Positions 2,871 to 21,624 of a DNA stretch of 24,640 bases are shown here, one piece after another. Each line of letters begins with the position of its first letter. Within the stretch, counting starts at the first letter, position 1. A program made the translations under genes and the position numbers. The stretch is from a virus. The stretch lies in IMG/VR virus record IMGVR_UViG_3300021519_000072, positions 1 to 24,640 of that record; one strand, given 5' to 3'. The notes beneath the pieces are model-generated. The model saw only the letters and a list, made by a program, of their open reading frames with translations. It was not told the origin of the DNA and ran no database searches.

Positions 2871-3078
2871 CACCACGGATTTTATCCCGTGTGAGGTGTG
2901 CGGAAGCCAGGCCGTGGATATTCACCACATCCATCCACGGGGAATGGGAGGCACAAAAACAAAGGATGTTATTGAGAATTTACAAGCACTTTGTCGACCT
3001 TGCCACATTCAGTACGGCGATAAGAAACAACACATGGATTTTTTAATTATTACACACCAAATAAAAATCAACAAATGA
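2827..3078 (+). CDS. HNH endonuclease
   Basis: The 83-aa product is a compact phage HNH nuclease. IPCEVCG supplies the first zinc CxxC, DIHHI is the beta-beta-alpha His motif, RGMGGTKTKDVIENLQALC gives the Asn of HNH, and CRPCH gives the second CxxC and final His. Family members are metal-dependent DNA endonucleases. In phages they often lie near terminase genes and can assist packaging or act as nicking enzymes. This one lies about 3 kb before terminase, next to the modification block. The start overlaps the previous gene by 44 nt and the end overlaps the ParB-like gene by 4 nt. Confidence 0.9.
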   Translation: MKPHTKIYLTYFGYDTTDFIPCEVCGSQAVDIHHIHPRGMGGTKTKDVIENLQALCRPCHIQYGDKKQHMDFLIITHQIKINK

Positions 3079-3650
3079 TACAAACAGTAAAAACCAAAGA
3101 CATCATCGCCAACGATACGAACCCAAGGGTCATCAAAGATGATAAGTTCAAGAAGTTAGTTCAATCCATCAAGGACTTTCCGCAAATGCTACAACTCCGA
3201 CCCATCGTTGTCAATGACGATATGGTGGTCCTCGGGGGCAATATGCGTTTACGGGCGGTGCAAGAAGTTGGATTAAAAGAAGTGCCAATCATTAAAGCAT
3301 CGGATCTAACACCCGAGCAACAAAAAGAGTTTATCATTAAGGACAATGTAGGATTCGGAGAATGGGATTGGGATGTATTAGCCAATGAATGGGAACCCGA
3401 ATTGTTGACCGAATGGGGTTTAGATGTATGGCAACAACCCGTGGAAGTCGATTACTCACTTTTGGATGAGGAAGATTTATCGGGAGAACTTTCTGACATG
3501 GCCGATGGGGTAAAGAAAGCCATTCAAATTGAATTTGAACCAGACCATTACGAGGAAGCCACGGAGGTCGTGAAGTTTTGGAGAGAACGCGGGGCGTATC
3601 TTGGATACATGATTCTGCAATTCCTCAAAGACGAAAAAGAGAAGTTATGA
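3075..3650 (+). CDS. ParB/Srx-fold domain protein
   Basis: The product is 191 aa. An N-terminal ParB-like domain spans residues ~1-100: VKTKDIIANDTNPRVI, then LRPIVV, then GGNMRLRAVQEVG (residues 54-66), the nucleotide/phosphate-binding loop of the fold. After an acidic linker, a C-terminal helix (FEPDHYEEATEVVKFWRERGAYLGYMI) is characteristic of the Bacteroidota phage version. ParB-fold proteins include CTPases and DNA nucleases; which activity applies here is unknown. ParB-like genes occur beside TET/JBP dioxygenases in phage modification clusters, as here. It overlaps the glycosyltransferase start by 4 nt. Confidence 0.9.
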   Translation: MIQTVKTKDIIANDTNPRVIKDDKFKKLVQSIKDFPQMLQLRPIVVNDDMVVLGGNMRLRAVQEVGLKEVPIIKASDLTPEQQKEFIIKDNVGFGEWDWDVLANEWEPELLTEWGLDVWQQPVEVDYSLLDEEDLSGELSDMADGVKKAIQIEFEPDHYEEATEVVKFWRERGAYLGYMILQFLKDEKEKL

Positions 3651-4351
3651 AAATCTTTTTAATGTATTATGACCGATATACGAATTCTACGACATCTAAA
3701 ATGTTGAAGATTCCGCACATCGTATTATGTCATAATAACAAAGATTTGTTTACTTGTATCGGAGAGCAAGGTCAATTAATAGAAACAAACGAACCCAAAG
3801 GCATACAAAACAATTTCAATTATGGATTGGGATTGATGGCTATGGGGGAATGGGCAGTCTTTATGAGCGATGATTTGGTAGGGGCTAAAAAAATTAGTAA
3901 CGCCAAGTTCGTAGATTGCACGATTGAGGAAACATTGAACGAATTGCTATCAATAATTCCGAAAGCAGACGCCATGGGAGTTAAATTGATTGGCTTAAAT
4001 TCAACGGGTAATCCGTTTTATGCCAAAAACAAATACTCTAAATATGGATTAGTAGACGGGAGATGCTTCGCGATCAAAAAAACGGACTTCAAATTCCACG
4101 AAACCATCAACACCATACCAGATTATTATGCTTCGGCATATCATTTGCACAAATACGGCGGAAATTTGATACTCAATTACACCTTTTTAGACTTCAAACG
4201 ATACGAAAAAGGAGGATTGGGAAGCGAACAAGACCGCATCCATGATAAAATCAAGGATGTAAATTTGTTATTGCGTTTGTTTCCGAAGAATGTTCAATTA
4301 AAAGACAAGCCGAACCAACCAAAAAACACCCATATAATCATAAAACGATGA
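3647..4351 (+). CDS. Glycosyltransferase-like protein, probable modified-base glycosylation (TAGT-like)
   Basis: From the ATGA-overlap start at 3647 the product is 234 aa. It resembles the GT-A-like glycosyltransferases found with phage TET/JBP enzymes: a first beta strand (IFLMYYDR), NFNYGLGLMAMGEWAVFMSDDLVG with an acidic SDDL at 74-77 in the usual metal/sugar-nucleotide position, LIGLNSTGNPFYAK (114-127), LVDGRCFAIKK, and a C-terminal DFKRYEKGGLGSEQDR. The expected role is to add a sugar to a hydroxymethylated base in phage DNA. The family call rests on motif order and on the dioxygenase sitting directly downstream with a 4-nt overlap. The frame is open back to 3578, but the added residues do not look genuine. 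Confidence 0.75.
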   Translation: MKIFLMYYDRYTNSTTSKMLKIPHIVLCHNNKDLFTCIGEQGQLIETNEPKGIQNNFNYGLGLMAMGEWAVFMSDDLVGAKKISNAKFVDCTIEETLNELLSIIPKADAMGVKLIGLNSTGNPFYAKNKYSKYGLVDGRCFAIKKTDFKFHETINTIPDYYASAYHLHKYGGNLILNYTFLDFKRYEKGGLGSEQDRIHDKIKDVNLLLRLFPKNVQLKDKPNQPKNTHIIIKR

Positions 4352-5151
4352 AACGATTAGACCTAACCCTACAACCCAATGAAGCCAAAATCGGTCAAGA
4401 CTGTCCGTATTTAGCCCCGAACATTACCGAAGATTGCATATTCTATGAAAATGGCGAACCGATTGGCTTCTATATCAAATCAATGCCCGAACGAGCATTG
4501 AAATTGGCAAACTTGGCGAATGCAGAATTCCAAAGCAAACGCGTACCCAAATCATTATTGGAACGCAGTGATGTGATGTCCAAAGTTTACAAAGAAGGTA
4601 TGACCAGGGCCGAAGCAAAAAAGAACGGCACGGTCCAGATGTCAACAATCTTAGGTTCGATTCCTCCCAAGCCCCACATGAAAAGACCCTATCCGTCAAT
4701 TTCATCGGTACACCAATCCGATACGGCCCAAACTTTTATTAAGGCCATGTTGATGTTGGCAAAGGAAAGCGAATCAATTATGCATGATATTTTACCCGAT
4801 CAATATGAACGCCAAGTGGAATTATTCAAACAAGTGCCAGACAAATGGAAGTTCGGAAACCTTTTTACATCTTCAATTTCGAACTATAACATATCTGCAC
4901 CTTTCCATCGTGACACGGGCAACATCGTAGGGGCGGTTAATGTGATCATCACGAAACGATTGAACGCCAAAGGGGGTAACTTGTATGTTCCCGATTATGG
5001 GGCCGTCATGGATAGCGCAGACAATTCAATGTTAGTTTACCCCGCTTGGAAAAATGTGCATGGCGTAACGCCAATTATCCCGCTACATGAAGGGGGTTAT
5101 AGGAATAGTTTGATATTTTATCCCCTAAAAGCATTCGTGGGAGAAAAATAA
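4348..5151 (+). CDS. TET/JBP-family 2-oxoglutarate/Fe(II)-dependent dioxygenase
   Basis: The 267-aa product carries the full catalytic set of the TET/JBP family. HxD is at H187-x-D189 (APFHRDTGN), the distal iron His is at H238 (KNVHGVTP), and the 2-oxoglutarate-binding Arg is at R252 (YRNSLIFYP). In between lies the GGNLYVPDYG strand typical of the fold. These enzymes hydroxylate the 5-methyl group of 5-methylcytosine (TET) or thymine (JBP). Residues 1-160 are a helical region with AEAKKNGTVQ and no recognised domain. With the preceding glycosyltransferase it forms an oxidise-then-glycosylate pair. No cytosine-5 methyltransferase is in the window, so its substrate is open. It is the last gene of the left operon. 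Confidence 0.88.
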   Translation: MKRLDLTLQPNEAKIGQDCPYLAPNITEDCIFYENGEPIGFYIKSMPERALKLANLANAEFQSKRVPKSLLERSDVMSKVYKEGMTRAEAKKNGTVQMSTILGSIPPKPHMKRPYPSISSVHQSDTAQTFIKAMLMLAKESESIMHDILPDQYERQVELFKQVPDKWKFGNLFTSSISNYNISAPFHRDTGNIVGAVNVIITKRLNAKGGNLYVPDYGAVMDSADNSMLVYPAWKNVHGVTPIIPLHEGGYRNSLIFYPLKAFVGEK

Positions 5152-5819: not shown

Positions 5820-6193
5820 TGGCATACGATAGAAACGAATTAGAAACGATGGCCGTTGAAGCCATCAAGAAGAACAAGTTGTTTTTCATTCAAGATGTAA
5901 TCGCCTATTTACCTTGTACCAGCAGTACATTTTATAACATCGGTTTGGAAAAATCGGAAACAATAAAAGAGGCGTTGTTGGAAGTTAAAACAAACATCAA
6001 GGTATCAATGCGTTCTAAATGGTATATGAGTGAACAACCGACTTTGCAATTGGCTTTAATGAAATTGATAAGTAGCGAAGAAGAACTCCGCAAACTATCT
6101 ATGAGCCACAATGTATTAGAGGAAAAAGAGAAACCAATTTTCAACGGAATTGATATAGATGTTGCAGAAAACAACGGCCCAGGTCAAGATTAG
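5819..6193 (+). CDS. Terminase small subunit-like protein
   Basis: The 124-aa product has an HTH-like N-terminus (FFIQDVIAYLPCTSSTFYNIGLEKSETIKEALLE) and a central MRSKWYMSEQPTLQLALMKLISSEEELRKLSM. The block 'MRSKW...PTLQLALMKL' with a following helix is typical of Bacteroidota phage small terminase-like proteins, which recognise viral DNA and deliver it to the large subunit. It directly precedes and overlaps (35 nt) the large subunit, which supports the call. The acidic end (DIDVAENNGPGQD) could contact the motor. Confidence 0.8.
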   Translation: MAYDRNELETMAVEAIKKNKLFFIQDVIAYLPCTSSTFYNIGLEKSETIKEALLEVKTNIKVSMRSKWYMSEQPTLQLALMKLISSEEELRKLSMSHNVLEEKEKPIFNGIDIDVAENNGPGQD

Positions 6194-7316
6194 TCGATTA
6201 CGCAAACGGGTTAGAATTGTAAGGGGCGGAACATCAAGTTCAAAAACCTTTTCGATTATTCCGTTGCTGATTGATTATGCAGTCAAAAACCCTAAGTGTG
6301 AAATAAGCGTTGTGTCAGAAACTATCCCCCATTTGCGGAGGGGTGCTATACGCGACTTCCTTAAAATAATGGAAATGATTGGTATGTTTGATCCGTTGAA
6401 ATGGAACAAATCTTCATGGACTTACAAGTTTAGCAACGAAAGTTATATTGAATTCTTTTCTGCAGACCAGCCCCAAAAATTACGGGGGGCGAGGCGTGAT
6501 GTTCTTTTCGTAAACGAGTGCAATAACATAGATTGGGAATCATATTATCAGATGGCGATTCGTACCCGTAAATTCATCTATTTAGATTACAACCCCGTAT
6601 CAGAGTTTTGGGTAGATAGCGAATTAGTGAACGACCCCGATGCGGAAATGATTGTACTCACCTACAAGGATAACGAAGCATTGGACAAATCCATCGTGGC
6701 GGAAATTGAGAAAGCACGAGAAAGGGCAACCACATCAAACTATTGGGCGAATTGGTGGCGGGTATACGGACTTGGTGAGATTGGCAACTTGCAAGGGGTT
6801 ATCTTTAGCAATTGGCAAACCATTGACATACTTCCCGATGATGCAAGATTGCTTGGCATTGGTGTGGATTTTGGGTATACAAACGACCCTACGGCCATCG
6901 TTGCCGTTTATGAATACAATGGTCAACGCATCATCGATGAGGTGGCATATCGCACGGGTATGCTTAATTCGGACATAGCAAAAGCATTACCGACCTTTGT
7001 ACCCGTTTACGCAGATAGTGCCGAACCAAAGTCGATAGATGAAATACGGAGATATGGTGTCAGAATTAAGGGGGTCACCAAGGGCAAAGATTCTATAAAC
7101 TACGGAATACAAATCATGCAAAGCCAATCCTATCTGATCACTTCCACATCGACGAACCTAATCAAAGAATTACGCAATTATTGTTGGGATACGGATGCTC
7201 AAGGCCGAACAACCAACATACCAATTGGTACAGACCACGCAATTGATTCGTTCAGATACCACGAAATGATGGCATTAGGAATTAAAAGCACCTACGGGCA
7301 ATACGATATTCGTTAA
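6159..7316 (+). CDS. terL: Terminase large subunit
   Basis: The 385-aa product is a complete phage packaging ATPase-nuclease. Walker A-like RGGTSSSKT is at residues 22-30, and the Walker B strand with catalytic Glu is DVLFVNE at 114-120, followed by CNNI. The C-terminal RNase H-like nuclease has D237 (GVDFGYTNDPTA), D286 (YADSAEPKSI) and D359/D363 (DHAIDSFRY). It cuts concatemers and pumps DNA into the prohead. Length is at the short end for TerL but nothing is missing. ATG 6159 lies inside the small-subunit gene, as is common. Confidence 0.96.
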   Translation: MLQKTTAQVKISRLRKRVRIVRGGTSSSKTFSIIPLLIDYAVKNPKCEISVVSETIPHLRRGAIRDFLKIMEMIGMFDPLKWNKSSWTYKFSNESYIEFFSADQPQKLRGARRDVLFVNECNNIDWESYYQMAIRTRKFIYLDYNPVSEFWVDSELVNDPDAEMIVLTYKDNEALDKSIVAEIEKARERATTSNYWANWWRVYGLGEIGNLQGVIFSNWQTIDILPDDARLLGIGVDFGYTNDPTAIVAVYEYNGQRIIDEVAYRTGMLNSDIAKALPTFVPVYADSAEPKSIDEIRRYGVRIKGVTKGKDSINYGIQIMQSQSYLITSTSTNLIKELRNYCWDTDAQGRTTNIPIGTDHAIDSFRYHEMMALGIKSTYGQYDIR

Positions 7317-7346
7317 TTGTTTATTACTTGTTTATTTGTATCTTCG
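7317..7346 (+). promoter_or_regulatory. Bacteroidota-type promoter before the DnaA-domain gene and tail module
   Basis: TTG at 7317-7319, a 19-nt spacer and TATCTTCG at 7339-7346 fit the -33/-7 pattern. It lies in the gap right after terL. The box shares TGTATCTTCGCTT exactly with the promoter at 5166-5194. The ATG at 7354 is 7 nt past the box, so again a leaderless or very short leader transcript is predicted. Confidence 0.7.
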
Positions 7347-7353
7347 CTTTGAT

Positions 7354-7797
7354 ATGACAAGCCATTACCAACAATTACACAACCAACGACAAGAAATTAA
7401 ACGCCTTCGCTTATTGTTAGTTCAGATACAAGGCGAGGCCCTAACCAAAATCCAATCGTTAAAGCGTGAAATAATAAACCCACGGGTTGATTTTAACGAT
7501 GCACCCAACCATTGGAAGGAAGTATTGAGGGCGGTTTGCACAGTATCGGAATTAACCCCCGATGAAATACTTTGCCCATCACGGAAACGGGCATCGTTAT
7601 ACGCCCGTCACATGTTCAATTTTATTTGCAGAAAAAGATTAGGGATGCCGTGGGCAGAAATCGGTCGGATCATCCATCGCGACCATTCAACGGCAATCAA
7701 TTCGGTAAACGAGTTTAGCAACATTTTGTACACCGATAAGGAGGTGCAAAGGCAATACGCCAAGGTGTGTGTGTTGCTCAATGAAGCGTTGGAATAA
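7354..7797 (+). CDS. Free-standing DnaA domain IV-like DNA-binding protein
   Basis: From ATG 7354 the product is 147 aa. Residues ~1-50 are a helical, probably coiled-coil arm (HNQRQEIKRLRLLLVQIQ). The rest matches the DnaA C-terminal domain (Bac_DnaA_C, a TrpR-like HTH): SELTPDEILCPSRKR, ARHMFNFICRKRLGMPWAEIGRII, then HRDHSTAINSV, the DnaA signature contacting the DnaA box. The AAA+ ATPase is absent, so it can bind DNA but not initiate replication. A role as a repressor or activator of late genes or as a replication competitor is inference. A start at TTG 7336 was rejected because it falls in the -7 region. Confidence 0.85.
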   Translation: MTSHYQQLHNQRQEIKRLRLLLVQIQGEALTKIQSLKREIINPRVDFNDAPNHWKEVLRAVCTVSELTPDEILCPSRKRASLYARHMFNFICRKRLGMPWAEIGRIIHRDHSTAINSVNEFSNILYTDKEVQRQYAKVCVLLNEALE

Positions 7798-15483: not shown

Positions 15484-15903
15484 ATGCTCATTAACACATT
15501 AGGAATGAATTTTGCCATCAAAGAAAAAATGGCCGACACCAATCCATTGAGTGGTGTTGTGGCTAAGTTCTTGGAAATGGAATCACAATTGCAAGTATTC
15601 CATTGGCAGACATTTGGATTGGGTATTCACAGAGGTATCGGCAAATTATACGAAGCATTAGTTGAACAAGCGGATGAGTTCACCGAAACGGGAATGGGCA
15701 TTTATGGTCGACCTACCTTTGGACAAACATCATTGCCAATCCAAGATTTTAGCGAGGAAGTAATGAACGCATATTTGAATGATGGCATCGCCTTTTTGAA
15801 AGGATTGAACCAAGTGTTTCCAAACGATTCAGACCTTTTGAACATCCGTGATACCATCATGGGAGAATTTAACAGAACGAAATACCTAATAACATTAAAA
15901 TGA
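15484..15903 (+). CDS. Dps/ferritin-like fold protein (DUF5856-like)
   Basis: The 139-aa product resembles the Dps ferritin-like helix-bundle: MESQLQVFHWQTFGLGIHRGIG, then KLYEALVEQADEFTETGMG. Taking the second His (IHRG) as zero, D at +15 and E at +19 match the spacing of the last two Dps ferroxidase ligands, but the Asp normally at +4 is Gly. This may be a ferritin-like protein without full iron oxidation, or a scaffold-like fold. It is known in Bacteroidota phages as DUF5856. It lies between tape measure and capsid genes. The start at ATG 15484 is the longest; ATG 15505 or 15529 is possible. Confidence 0.85.
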   Translation: MLINTLGMNFAIKEKMADTNPLSGVVAKFLEMESQLQVFHWQTFGLGIHRGIGKLYEALVEQADEFTETGMGIYGRPTFGQTSLPIQDFSEEVMNAYLNDGIAFLKGLNQVFPNDSDLLNIRDTIMGEFNRTKYLITLK

Positions 15904-19090: not shown

Positions 19091-19432
19091 ATGCACATCA
19101 ATAACGCATCCACCAATATCAATTTCACATCGTTTGTGGAATTTACGGGTGTATCAACGATTGAGGTGTGGCATAAGCCCACCAAAACAATGGTGACGGC
19201 TACAAGTACCCCAAGCAAGTTATATTCGTTCTACACGATGAATTTGCCCGTTTTAACGCCTATCAATTTGGTGGCTAATAATACGGATGAGATATTGATT
19301 CGTATATTCAATGCAAACCATTTGGTGTGGGAGTATTTAGGGTATTGGATTGTGGGAACTACAAACATTAACAACACATGGAAGGATTGGGATACCACCG
19401 CCCCCGTGTCACCTAATTGGATAACATTATGA
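19091..19432 (+). CDS. Small beta-rich structural-type protein ahead of the portal
   Basis: From ATG 19091 the product is 113 aa, almost all predicted strand (STNINFTSFVEFTGVSTIEV, LINLVANNTDEILIRIF, LVWEYLGYWIVG) with a WKDWDTTAPVSPNWI end. I do not recognise the family. A fibronectin- or head-decoration-like beta domain would fit its operon position. A TTG start at 19076 was rejected because it overlaps the -7-like element. It overlaps the portal start by 4 nt. Confidence 0.65.
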   Translation: MHINNASTNINFTSFVEFTGVSTIEVWHKPTKTMVTATSTPSKLYSFYTMNLPVLTPINLVANNTDEILIRIFNANHLVWEYLGYWIVGTTNINNTWKDWDTTAPVSPNWITL

Positions 19433-21624
19433 GTTTAGAATTTATACAACTACAATCATACACCGCACCATCAATCATTGAGCAAAAAAACAAGGATTGG
19501 GTGCAATATGGTGACGATAACAATTATTATCAGTATTTGATTGACTTGTATCATGGTTCACCAACCAACAATGCGTGTATCAAGGGCATTGCGGATCAAA
19601 TTTATGGCAAGGGATTAGAAGTAACGACCACATCGCGTGACCTACCAGGTTATATTGAGTTCAAAAAGATGTTTAGTGGGGACTGTTTACGGGCGGTAAT
19701 TATGGATTTGAAGATGTTAGGCCAAGCATCGTTTCAACTTATCAAGTCGAAGGATAAGAAAAAGTATGTTCAAGCCAAGCACTTTCCACAACAAACGCTT
19801 CGACCCGCCAAGTGCAACGATAAAGGCGAGATTGAAAAGTATTATTATTACCCCGATTGGGCCAATATCAAGCGTGGAACACAACCCACAGAGATAAGGG
19901 CGTGGGGTTACGATGAATCTTCAAACGAATGTATATTAACAATCAAACCATATTCAACGGGTTCGTTTTACTTCGCACCCGTGGACTACCAAGGCGGTAC
20001 GCAATATGCAAACTTGGAGTCGGAGATATCCAATTTTCACATCAACAACATAATGAATGGTTTGGCACCAAGTATGTTGATAAACTTCAACAATGGGCAA
20101 CCACCAGCAGAGGTTAAAGATACGGTTGAAGCCCAAATCAAATCAAAGTTTGGTGGATCAAGCAATGCGGGTCGTTTTATTATTAGTTGGAACGATGGCA
20201 AGGATTCGGCTGCGGATATCACTCCAGTACAATTAAGTGATGCACACAACCAATATCAATTCCTTAGTTCGGAATCAATGCAAAAGGTAATGATATCACA
20301 CCGAGTGGTATCGCCATTGTTATTGGGTATTAAAGACGGAACGGGATTTGGTAATAACGCGGATGAATTAAAGTCGGCATCCATTTTGTTTGACAATGTT
20401 GTTATCAGACCTTTCCAACGATTGGTTATTGATGCAGTTACCAAGGTATTAAATCACAATGGTTACAACCTTAATATGTATTTCAAGACATTACAACCAC
20501 TTGAATTTACGGATTTAACGGGCAATGTAATTGATGATGAAACCCGCGAGGAAGAAACGGGCGTATCGTTGTCATTAAAAAAAAAGATTGAATTAGTCCA
20601 TCCCAAAGCGGGAGAATCCAAGGATGATTTTTTAGGTCGTTGCATCCCTTATGTGATAAATGAAGGCAAAGACAATGACCAAGCGGTTGCAATGTGCAAT
20701 TCATTTTGGACGGAAATGAGTGCAGGTGAGAAAGTGTCATTTGATTATGACGATACTTTGTCAACCGATAGAGGTAAAAAGTTAGCGGAAAAGGAAATCA
20801 AGGATGGTTCAATCGTTTATATTATTTCCGCCCGTGGGGATAAGGAAGGAATGTTGGCAACGGCAAACGGATTGGGAATACCAGAATCAAGGGTATACGC
20901 TACGGGGTCAAATAAAGCCAAAATTGAGAAGATAAACGAGTTGGGTATATCTAAGCATTACGATAACAATTCGGATGTCATAGACGGGCTAAAAGGCATT
21001 GGTGTTCAATTTGAAATCACCGATTCACAAAGTGATGATTGGTTGAAACATTTGAAAAGCCGTGGGGAAATAATTAACGGAGATGTGTGGGAATTGATTG
21101 ATGTAACGGAAGTTACGGATGCGGATGAGGAATTAAGATTTAACATGGCGTATGAAAACCCCAATAAAAAAAGTGGTGATGATAAAGGGGTTTACAAAAT
21201 CCGTTATCGGTACGGCCCTAATTTCCTATCCGACAATTCAAGGCAGTTTTGTTCTGCAATGGTTCAAGAATCCAAAGGGGGAGTAATTTATCGCCGTGAA
21301 GATATTTTGACAATGGGGGATGCGGGTGTTAACGGACAATTTGCACCAAGCGGACAAAGTTCATATTCCATTTGGAAATACAAGGGTGGTGTTAATTGCC
21401 ACCACAGATGGGAACGATTGACATTCAGACGGAAGCAAATCAAGGGTAAATTTTTACCAAAGCAACCAGGGGAAAGCGGTGAGAATCGCGATTTAGAAAA
21501 TTACAACGAAGTATCAAATAAGAGTGCCAACGCTGCGGGGGTTCCATTTTCACCAAGTGGATGGGAAACGGCATCAACAAGGCCAATTGATATGCCAAAC
21601 AAAGGTTCATTAAAAAACAAATAA
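19429..21624 (+). CDS. Portal protein fused to HAD phosphatase-like and C-terminal domains
   Basis: From ATG 19429 (ATGA overlap) the product is 731 aa. Residues ~1-365 are a phage portal protein (DNNYYQYLIDLYHGSPTNNACIKGIADQIYGKGL, HFPQQTLRP, SPLLLGIKDGTGFGNNADEL), forming the head's dodecameric DNA gate. Residues ~394-428 carry an ESKDDFLGRC...AVAMCNSFW motif common in phage head proteins. Residues ~435-525 form a HAD-type domain: FDYDDTL with D439/D441, IISAR, a Lys in SNKAKIEK, and HYDNNSDVI with D512. Residues ~560-731 form a Cys/His-containing domain (SRQFC, YRREDI, YSIWKYKGGVNCHHRW) ending PIDMPNKGSLKNK. Confidence 0.88.
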   Translation: MSLEFIQLQSYTAPSIIEQKNKDWVQYGDDNNYYQYLIDLYHGSPTNNACIKGIADQIYGKGLEVTTTSRDLPGYIEFKKMFSGDCLRAVIMDLKMLGQASFQLIKSKDKKKYVQAKHFPQQTLRPAKCNDKGEIEKYYYYPDWANIKRGTQPTEIRAWGYDESSNECILTIKPYSTGSFYFAPVDYQGGTQYANLESEISNFHINNIMNGLAPSMLINFNNGQPPAEVKDTVEAQIKSKFGGSSNAGRFIISWNDGKDSAADITPVQLSDAHNQYQFLSSESMQKVMISHRVVSPLLLGIKDGTGFGNNADELKSASILFDNVVIRPFQRLVIDAVTKVLNHNGYNLNMYFKTLQPLEFTDLTGNVIDDETREEETGVSLSLKKKIELVHPKAGESKDDFLGRCIPYVINEGKDNDQAVAMCNSFWTEMSAGEKVSFDYDDTLSTDRGKKLAEKEIKDGSIVYIISARGDKEGMLATANGLGIPESRVYATGSNKAKIEKINELGISKHYDNNSDVIDGLKGIGVQFEITDSQSDDWLKHLKSRGEIINGDVWELIDVTEVTDADEELRFNMAYENPNKKSGDDKGVYKIRYRYGPNFLSDNSRQFCSAMVQESKGGVIYRREDILTMGDAGVNGQFAPSGQSSYSIWKYKGGVNCHHRWERLTFRRKQIKGKFLPKQPGESGENRDLENYNEVSNKSANAAGVPFSPSGWETASTRPIDMPNKGSLKNK

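Follow-up and report, generated by a model that had tools for sequence, protein, structure and literature searches.

Putative DNA base hypermodification by an exchangeable ParB, TET/JBP dioxygenase and glycosyltransferase cassette in a tailed phage

Results

The DNA analysed here, called the window, comprises 24,640 bases of a tailed-phage genome and is a fragment; near-complete relatives reach 32-38 kb. Three genes on its plus strand, encoding a ParB-like protein, a protein that we call X and a dioxygenase, precede the gene of the terminase large subunit. The features are as follows.

3075..3650, plus strand: ParB-like protein, 191 aa (Pfam ParB_N, PHROG ParB families)
3647..4351, plus strand: X, predicted GT-A-fold glycosyltransferase, 234 aa (model, Foldseek, VIA-align, profile-profile comparison)
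3869..3874, plus strand: D75-D76 of X, acidic DxD-like metal or nucleotide-sugar motif (invariant, n=27)
4348..5151, plus strand: predicted TET/JBP Fe(II)/2-oxoglutarate dioxygenase, 267 aa (Pfam Tet_JBP, model)
4906..4914, plus strand: H187-x-D189, iron-binding motif of the dioxygenase (122/122 relatives)
4921..4923, plus strand: N192 of the dioxygenase (aligned with the Asn of TET2 HRDLHN)
5059..5061, plus strand: H238, third iron ligand of the dioxygenase (122/122 relatives)
5101..5103, plus strand: R252, 2-oxoglutarate anchor of the dioxygenase (121/122 relatives, one gap)
5125..5127, plus strand: L260 of the dioxygenase (aligned with the His of TET2 RISLVFYQHK)
6159..7316, plus strand: terminase large subunit (Pfam Terminase_3, E 1e-13)

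The ParB, X and TET/JBP genes are all coupled, because each neighbouring pair (ParB/X and X/dioxygenase) overlaps by 4 nt. The original prediction had described X (3647-4351) and the dioxygenase (4348-5151) as overlapping in this way, and its coordinates are correct. The terminase gene is a landmark outside the pathway and forms the right border of an exchangeable ParB-to-terminase interval. The nearest relatives of the terminase are those of Flavobacterium phages (52%), which makes a Bacteroidota host no more than a guess, and no prophage was found when GTDB genomes were searched with the window's TET. Elsewhere in the window, a protein with a DnaA C-terminal DNA-binding domain (7336-7797; Pfam E 3e-14) is encoded directly 3' of the terminase gene, and a DUF5856 protein (15484-15903; E 1e-10) lies among the structural genes. 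A portal-like protein of 735 aa (19417-21624) has a long C-terminal extension, in which a HAD-phosphatase-like stretch was recognised by eye (SFDYDDTLSTDRGKK...); that part had no Pfam match.

The dioxygenase matched Pfam Tet_JBP with 41.6 bits (cut-off 34.9, E 1e-10). In an alignment of 122 distinct relatives from public contigs, H187, D189 and H238 were invariant and R252 was kept in 121, with one gap; the HxD...H...R set named in the original prediction is thus correctly placed and near-invariant. The predicted structure (pLDDT 93) had human TET2 as its best match (Z 20.0, rmsd 3.2, 246 residues aligned), and it also matched NgTET1 (Z 19.1), CMD1 (17.4) and CcTET (16.7). Among the 50 matches listed, entries 1-16 belonged to the TET family (Z 20.0 to 16.1) and were followed by FTO (14.8), and the nearest solved structures to this fold are DNA oxidases. 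Structure prediction had been proposed as a check on this gene, and the model falls in the TET group. By profile and predicted fold, the 4348 gene product is a true TET/JBP dioxygenase. A Pfam search of the 267-aa protein for a J-DNA-binding or SWI2/SNF2 domain found neither, only Tet_JBP.

Two further positions of the active site were compared with TET2. Position 192 (N in 119 and D in 3 of the 122 relatives) aligns with the Asn of HRDLHN in TET2, the base-reading N1387. Position 260 (L 116, R 4, I 1, gap 1; n=122) aligns with the His of RISLVFYQHK in TET2, H1904, which contacts 5mC. Both are base-contact positions in the TET2 and NgTET1 structures. Retention of Asn192 together with Leu in place of His at 260 fits a changed base preference and does not decide it. 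Residue 192 was dropped as a decider of the target base, since Asn can pair with cytosine or thymine.

X had no match above the cut-off in Pfam, none in NCBIfam, none by tblastn against 50,697 phage records and nothing convincing among PDB sequences. Its only family-level sequence signal was a weak match (E 0.009) to phrog_842, the T-even beta-glucosyl-HMC-alpha-glucosyltransferase family. An alignment of 27 diverse members, slot-mates of X, showed that R10, D75, D76, D159 and G190 are invariant, and the SDD and GG blocks from which a glycosyltransferase had been read are true conserved positions. The model of X (pLDDT 90) takes a GT-A fold, and the refuting outcome that the original prediction had named for the structure of the 3647 gene did not arise; its best Foldseek match was TarP (6h1j), and VIA-align matched it to GalNAc-T2 with Z 15.5 over 209 residues. 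When X was compared by hhalign with aligned TAGT-like proteins that occupy this slot in relatives, the probability was 96% (E 4e-9, 159 columns). One such protein (L068) scored 53.7 bits for PF20691 TAGT, and X did not reach the cut-off of that family; it is therefore called TAGT-like, not TAGT. From these profile and fold comparisons, X is identified as a GT-A glycosyltransferase distantly related to the TET-associated glycosyltransferases (TAGT). The TAGT of phage T6 is a GT-A enzyme that groups beside GT2 enzymes and glucosylates DNA, and it has been compared with a TarP-type GT2 structure (PMC13216743), the type to which the top Foldseek match of X belongs. We propose that X glycosylates a hydroxymethyl pyrimidine.

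The ParB-like protein scored 31.1 bits against ParB_N (PF02195; cut-off 26.3) and also matched PHROG ParB families. Within its 191 aa, only the ParB_N / NTPase fold was seen and no HTH or dimerisation domain; the canonical ParB/Spo0J organisation (TIGR00180) was not reached, at 21.6 bits against a cut-off of 58.45. ParB lies directly upstream of TET in 76 of the 77 distinct metagenomic loci that had enough sequence to be evaluated, the sole exception being on a contig that breaks off close by. This arrangement is far beyond chance. The original prediction had rightly seen a ParB-like gene ahead of the pair; this gene (3075-3650) is a constant partner and no bystander.

The slot between ParB and TET is exchangeable. 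In the 77-locus set it held a GT-A protein in 51 loci, an FkbM methyltransferase in seven, an ADDT set in six, a 301-aa putative glycosyltransferase in six (the third family of X, GT-B-like by eye only and with no library match) and a GT-A protein with a sulfotransferase in four. One contig (L009) carries a TET, ParB and terminase 92%, 88% and 92% identical to those of the window and an unrelated X. The terminase gene lies within 2.5 kb after the TET cassette in 38 of 41 evaluable loci, and two TET clades that are distant from each other both show the cassette in fixed linkage with ParB and the terminase gene.

ADDT (PF18724) occupies the slot together with a P-loop kinase and a glutamine-amidotransferase-like gene in seven metagenomic contigs, one of which (L045) belongs to the lineage of the window (terminase 93%, ParB 89%). 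Among isolates, ADDT occurs with a kinase after TET in the Gordonia phage MossRose and near TET in the Microbacterium phage MO526 and the Rhodococcus phage Tonitrus. ADDT was present in nine of 29 records tested and absent from the window record, a 24.6-kb fragment. In the Mycobacterium phage Nigel, the set consists of ParB and TET alone. When the TET of Tonitrus was used as a search query, no match was obtained. On a tree of 94 TETs, parts of which are uncertain owing to long branches, the 10 ADDT-linked rows need nine changes, at least eight of them forced by supported branches, and the ADDT-linked TETs are scattered among GT- and FkbM-linked ones. Because the ADDT association changes at least eight times, the tree indicates that finishing enzymes have been swapped often on one oxidase. 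In the clade of the window, the active-site stretches of ADDT-linked and GT-linked TETs are almost identical.

Exchange in this lineage extends to whole chemistries. We sampled 80 contigs whose terminases are 90-95% identical to that of the window. In 66 loci, the window included, ParB precedes the terminase gene, and TET is present in 24 of them. Identity of ParB to that of the window was 88-97% for the other 23 loci with TET and 32-72% for the 42 loci without it, whereas terminase identity was 90-95% in both. Since ParB identity separates the two groups and terminase identity does not, these comparisons indicate that ParB goes with the type of chemistry, not with X or the phage backbone. Genes for 7-deazaguanine synthesis (QueC, PTPS/QueD, QueE-like radical-SAM, GTP cyclohydrolase I and DpdA-like proteins) fill the ParB-terminase interval in three loci with 92-95% identical terminases (L271:2316-5109; L272:2748-6056, with QueC; L294). 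Mom-family adenine-modification genes do so in eight (L276, L280, L282, L303, L304, L308, L313 and L318; two of these match Pfam Mom with E 6e-37 and 9e-48), and DNA methyltransferases in three. In other non-TET loci, ParB and a methyltransferase are joined in one protein; a DPPY/DPPW motif was read in several of the long ParB proteins.

An HMM search of the 24.6-kb window found no C5-methyltransferase. The original prediction had said that none was visible, which is right; far from being an oddity of the window, absence is the rule in the ParB-linked group, as PF00145 was found in none of 11 isolate genomes carrying TET. It was found in five of 50 metagenomic contigs picked without regard to C5-methyltransferases, and in two of the 17 contigs of at least 30 kb. 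The window being a fragment, a methyltransferase or nucleotide enzyme could lie outside it. In its lineage, C5-methyltransferases occur in seven of 20 TET loci and eight of 34 non-TET loci (Fisher p 0.53, range 0.53-1.0). The idea that those near some relatives feed TET was dropped for want of this association.

C5-methyltransferase genes recur just after the terminase gene (L014:4554-5600, L018:5281-6180, L045:6937-7968, L274 and L276) independently of TET. This position forms another site of exchange, and the window carries no such gene there. Close relatives with a GT-A X and a C5-methyltransferase after the terminase are L014, L018 and L019; the ADDT-type L045 also has one there. Hosts could supply 5mC, since a C5-methyltransferase is carried by 11 of 48 Prochlorococcus genomes, all of them relatives of MED4, the host of MED4-184.

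The thymidylate-synthase-type hydroxymethylase PF00303 was found in none of 30 records, the window fragment included. MossRose, MO526 and Tonitrus have ADDT and kinase near TET, without a C5-methyltransferase or PF00303. ADDT and this type of P-loop kinase are not known outside thymine hypermodification. If 5hmU has no other source in these phages, TET would be its natural supplier. In thymine hypermodification, 5hmdU is the common intermediate, on which a 5hmdU kinase acts (PMC6449724). Thymine thus appears the likelier target than 5mC, because the ADDT and kinase partners belong to thymine-derived bases and both C5-methyltransferase and PF00303 are absent from the isolates tested. The suggestion of a thymine target made in the original prediction gains indirect support from this absence and from ADDT and kinase in the slot.

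Discussion

The combination of a TET/JBP dioxygenase with a nucleotide-sugar-type glycosyltransferase is best read as a system for DNA base hypermodification. The predicted folds uphold this part of the original prediction, while thymine as the substrate is a proposal. We think it probable that ParB, TET/JBP and X together hypermodify a DNA base, most likely thymine. The cassette would act on phage DNA after replication. ParB may bind or load on DNA and bring the oxidase to its sites, where TET/JBP would hydroxylate the 5-methyl group of a pyrimidine, most likely converting thymine to 5-hydroxymethyluracil. X would then move a sugar from a nucleotide sugar onto the hydroxymethyl hydroxyl, and the product, a prokaryotic analogue of base J, could shield the packaged genome from host nucleases. 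ParB and TET would form the core and X would set the final decoration, because the slot takes other finishing enzymes in relatives. ParB is put forward as the putative DNA-targeting or loading partner of TET; this role is a proposal because linked inheritance of the ParB-TET block could produce the same pattern. A more specific model is that the cassette is a ParB-guided counterpart of base J, in which TET/JBP would hydroxylate thymine at ParB-marked places and the TAGT-like enzyme would glycosylate it. It would be one plug-in of a ParB-anchored socket that exchanges pyrimidine, guanine and adenine modification chemistries with a matching ParB. We hold this model tentatively, as it is slightly more apt to fail in some part than to hold as a whole.

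Pairing of TET with a glycosyltransferase in phages is already known. The clusters of TET, C5-methyltransferase and glycosyltransferase reported by Burke et al. 2021 and Iyer et al. 2013 likewise belong to tailed phages and have a TAGT-like glycosyltransferase next to TET/JBP. Unlike these clusters, the window and the 11 isolate genomes have no C5-methyltransferase, ParB is constant and the finishing enzyme is exchangeable, ADDT and kinase sets being among the replacements. If thymine is the target, the scheme is that of kinetoplastid base J (JBP1/JBP2 plus a glucosyltransferase), hydroxylation followed by glycosylation, but the 267-aa enzyme of the window has no J-binding or helicase domain and is accompanied by ParB instead. 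In phages M6, ViI and phi W-14, a thymidylate-synthase homologue produces 5hmU at the nucleotide level. Thymidine hypermodification in these phages shares ADDT and kinase genes with the slot of the window's relatives, whereas the thymidylate-synthase homologue is absent here and TET stands in its place. The T6 TAGT (PF20691, phrog_842) is likewise a DNA-acting phage enzyme of GT-A fold with a detectable relationship to X; X differs in falling below the Pfam cut-off and presumably in using another acceptor.

The Prochlorococcus phages MED4-184 and MED4-117 share the gene order of the window (ParB, X, TET, a small gene, terminase), with TETs about 50% identical over the full length and no C5-methyltransferase in their records. 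Their X is an FkbM-type methyltransferase, so that the product would be methylated and not glycosylated. The locus of Tonitrus also has ParB, TET and finishing genes near the terminase without a C5-methyltransferase or a thymidylate-synthase-type gene. It differs in having an ADDT-type protein (annotated aGPT-Pplase2) and a kinase in place of the GT-A glycosyltransferase, and its TET is 26.6% identical to that of the window. The original prediction had regarded thymine oxidation by TET as new for such a phage. The ParB/TET/kinase set of Tonitrus has already been named a thymidine hypermodification system, itself a prediction (PMC11955845), and the idea is therefore not entirely new.

The same cassette may instead act on 5mC made by a phage or host C5-methyltransferase, TET yielding 5hmC and X glycosylating it. 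Phage TETs paired with C5-methyltransferases reportedly oxidise 5mC (Burke et al. 2021, cited in PMC12730594). Some relatives and some potential hosts do carry C5-methyltransferases, just after the terminase gene in the case of the relatives. In addition, N192 might read either cytosine or thymine, ADDT may act on a 5hmC-derived base, and the T6 TAGT acts on a cytosine derivative (PMC13216743). This explanation has to meet the scarcity of PF00145 (0/11 isolates, 2/17 contigs of at least 30 kb) and the equal frequency of C5-methyltransferases in members of the lineage that lack TET. The ADDT and kinase partners, known from thymine-derived bases, also speak against it, as does Leu in most of the family where TET2 has the His that contacts 5mC. 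Taking both sides together, we regard 5mC as an unlikely substrate, with enough in its favour to be kept in view.

Two other explanations take the cassette away from phage DNA hypermodification. Enzymes with related GT-A folds modify proteins and wall polymers, and the target might be host or phage RNA, the pool of nucleotides or a glycoprotein of the virion, the two genes being linked by position only. The fixed linkage to ParB and the terminase gene across two TET clades that are distant from each other, the DNA oxidases that are nearest to the TET fold, and the Mom, 7-deazaguanine and DNA methyltransferase genes at the same place in related phages make this very improbable. Animal TET enzymes act as erasers (PMC12730594), and TET could by analogy remove host-type 5mC marks in counter-defence, X being unrelated. 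We give this hardly any credence, because nearly all relatives have a finishing enzyme in the slot, the isolates have no C5-methyltransferase of their own, and X is a predicted glycosyltransferase whose place is taken in relatives by ADDT, FkbM or other transferases.

Hypermodification of the phage's own DNA thus remains our preferred reading. To the known TET and glycosyltransferase pairing, our data add the constant ParB, the absence of a C5-methyltransferase as a rule, the repeated swaps that bring in finishing enzymes of the thymine type, and a single site at which near-identical phages exchange whole chemistries. Should thymine be the target, phages would be able to make hydroxymethyluracil, and from it a sugar-thymine resembling base J, after replication, and would offer a natural set of thymine oxidases. 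This would also bear on the proposed phage origin of TET/JBP enzymes. The function of ParB in DNA-modification loci has been called unknown (PMC12783734), and the exchange of chemistries beside ParB makes its role there directly testable.

Exchangeable finishing enzymes on one TET core may be a source of new DNA decorations, such as sugars, methyl groups, sulfate and amino acids. A glycosyltransferase and a sulfotransferase lie between ParB and TET in several loci (L061:8698-9998, L053, L057, L060 and L065), which suggests a sulfated sugar on DNA. In the Arthrobacter phage Bolt007 (L123:5815-8086), a TAGT-like enzyme and a PIG-L GlcNAc deacetylase (E 2e-12) are encoded after TET, which suggests an amino sugar on DNA.

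Annotations at these loci call for caution. Genes for TET/JBP proteins are labelled queuine tRNA-ribosyltransferase in L106:17129-17914, in L121:776-1744, in many RefSeq phage records and in PHROG 6059, and the MED4-184 ParB carries the label DNA methylase. The queuine tRNA-ribosyltransferase label was considered for the TET gene and ruled out by fold and Pfam, and both labels are apparently propagated misannotations.
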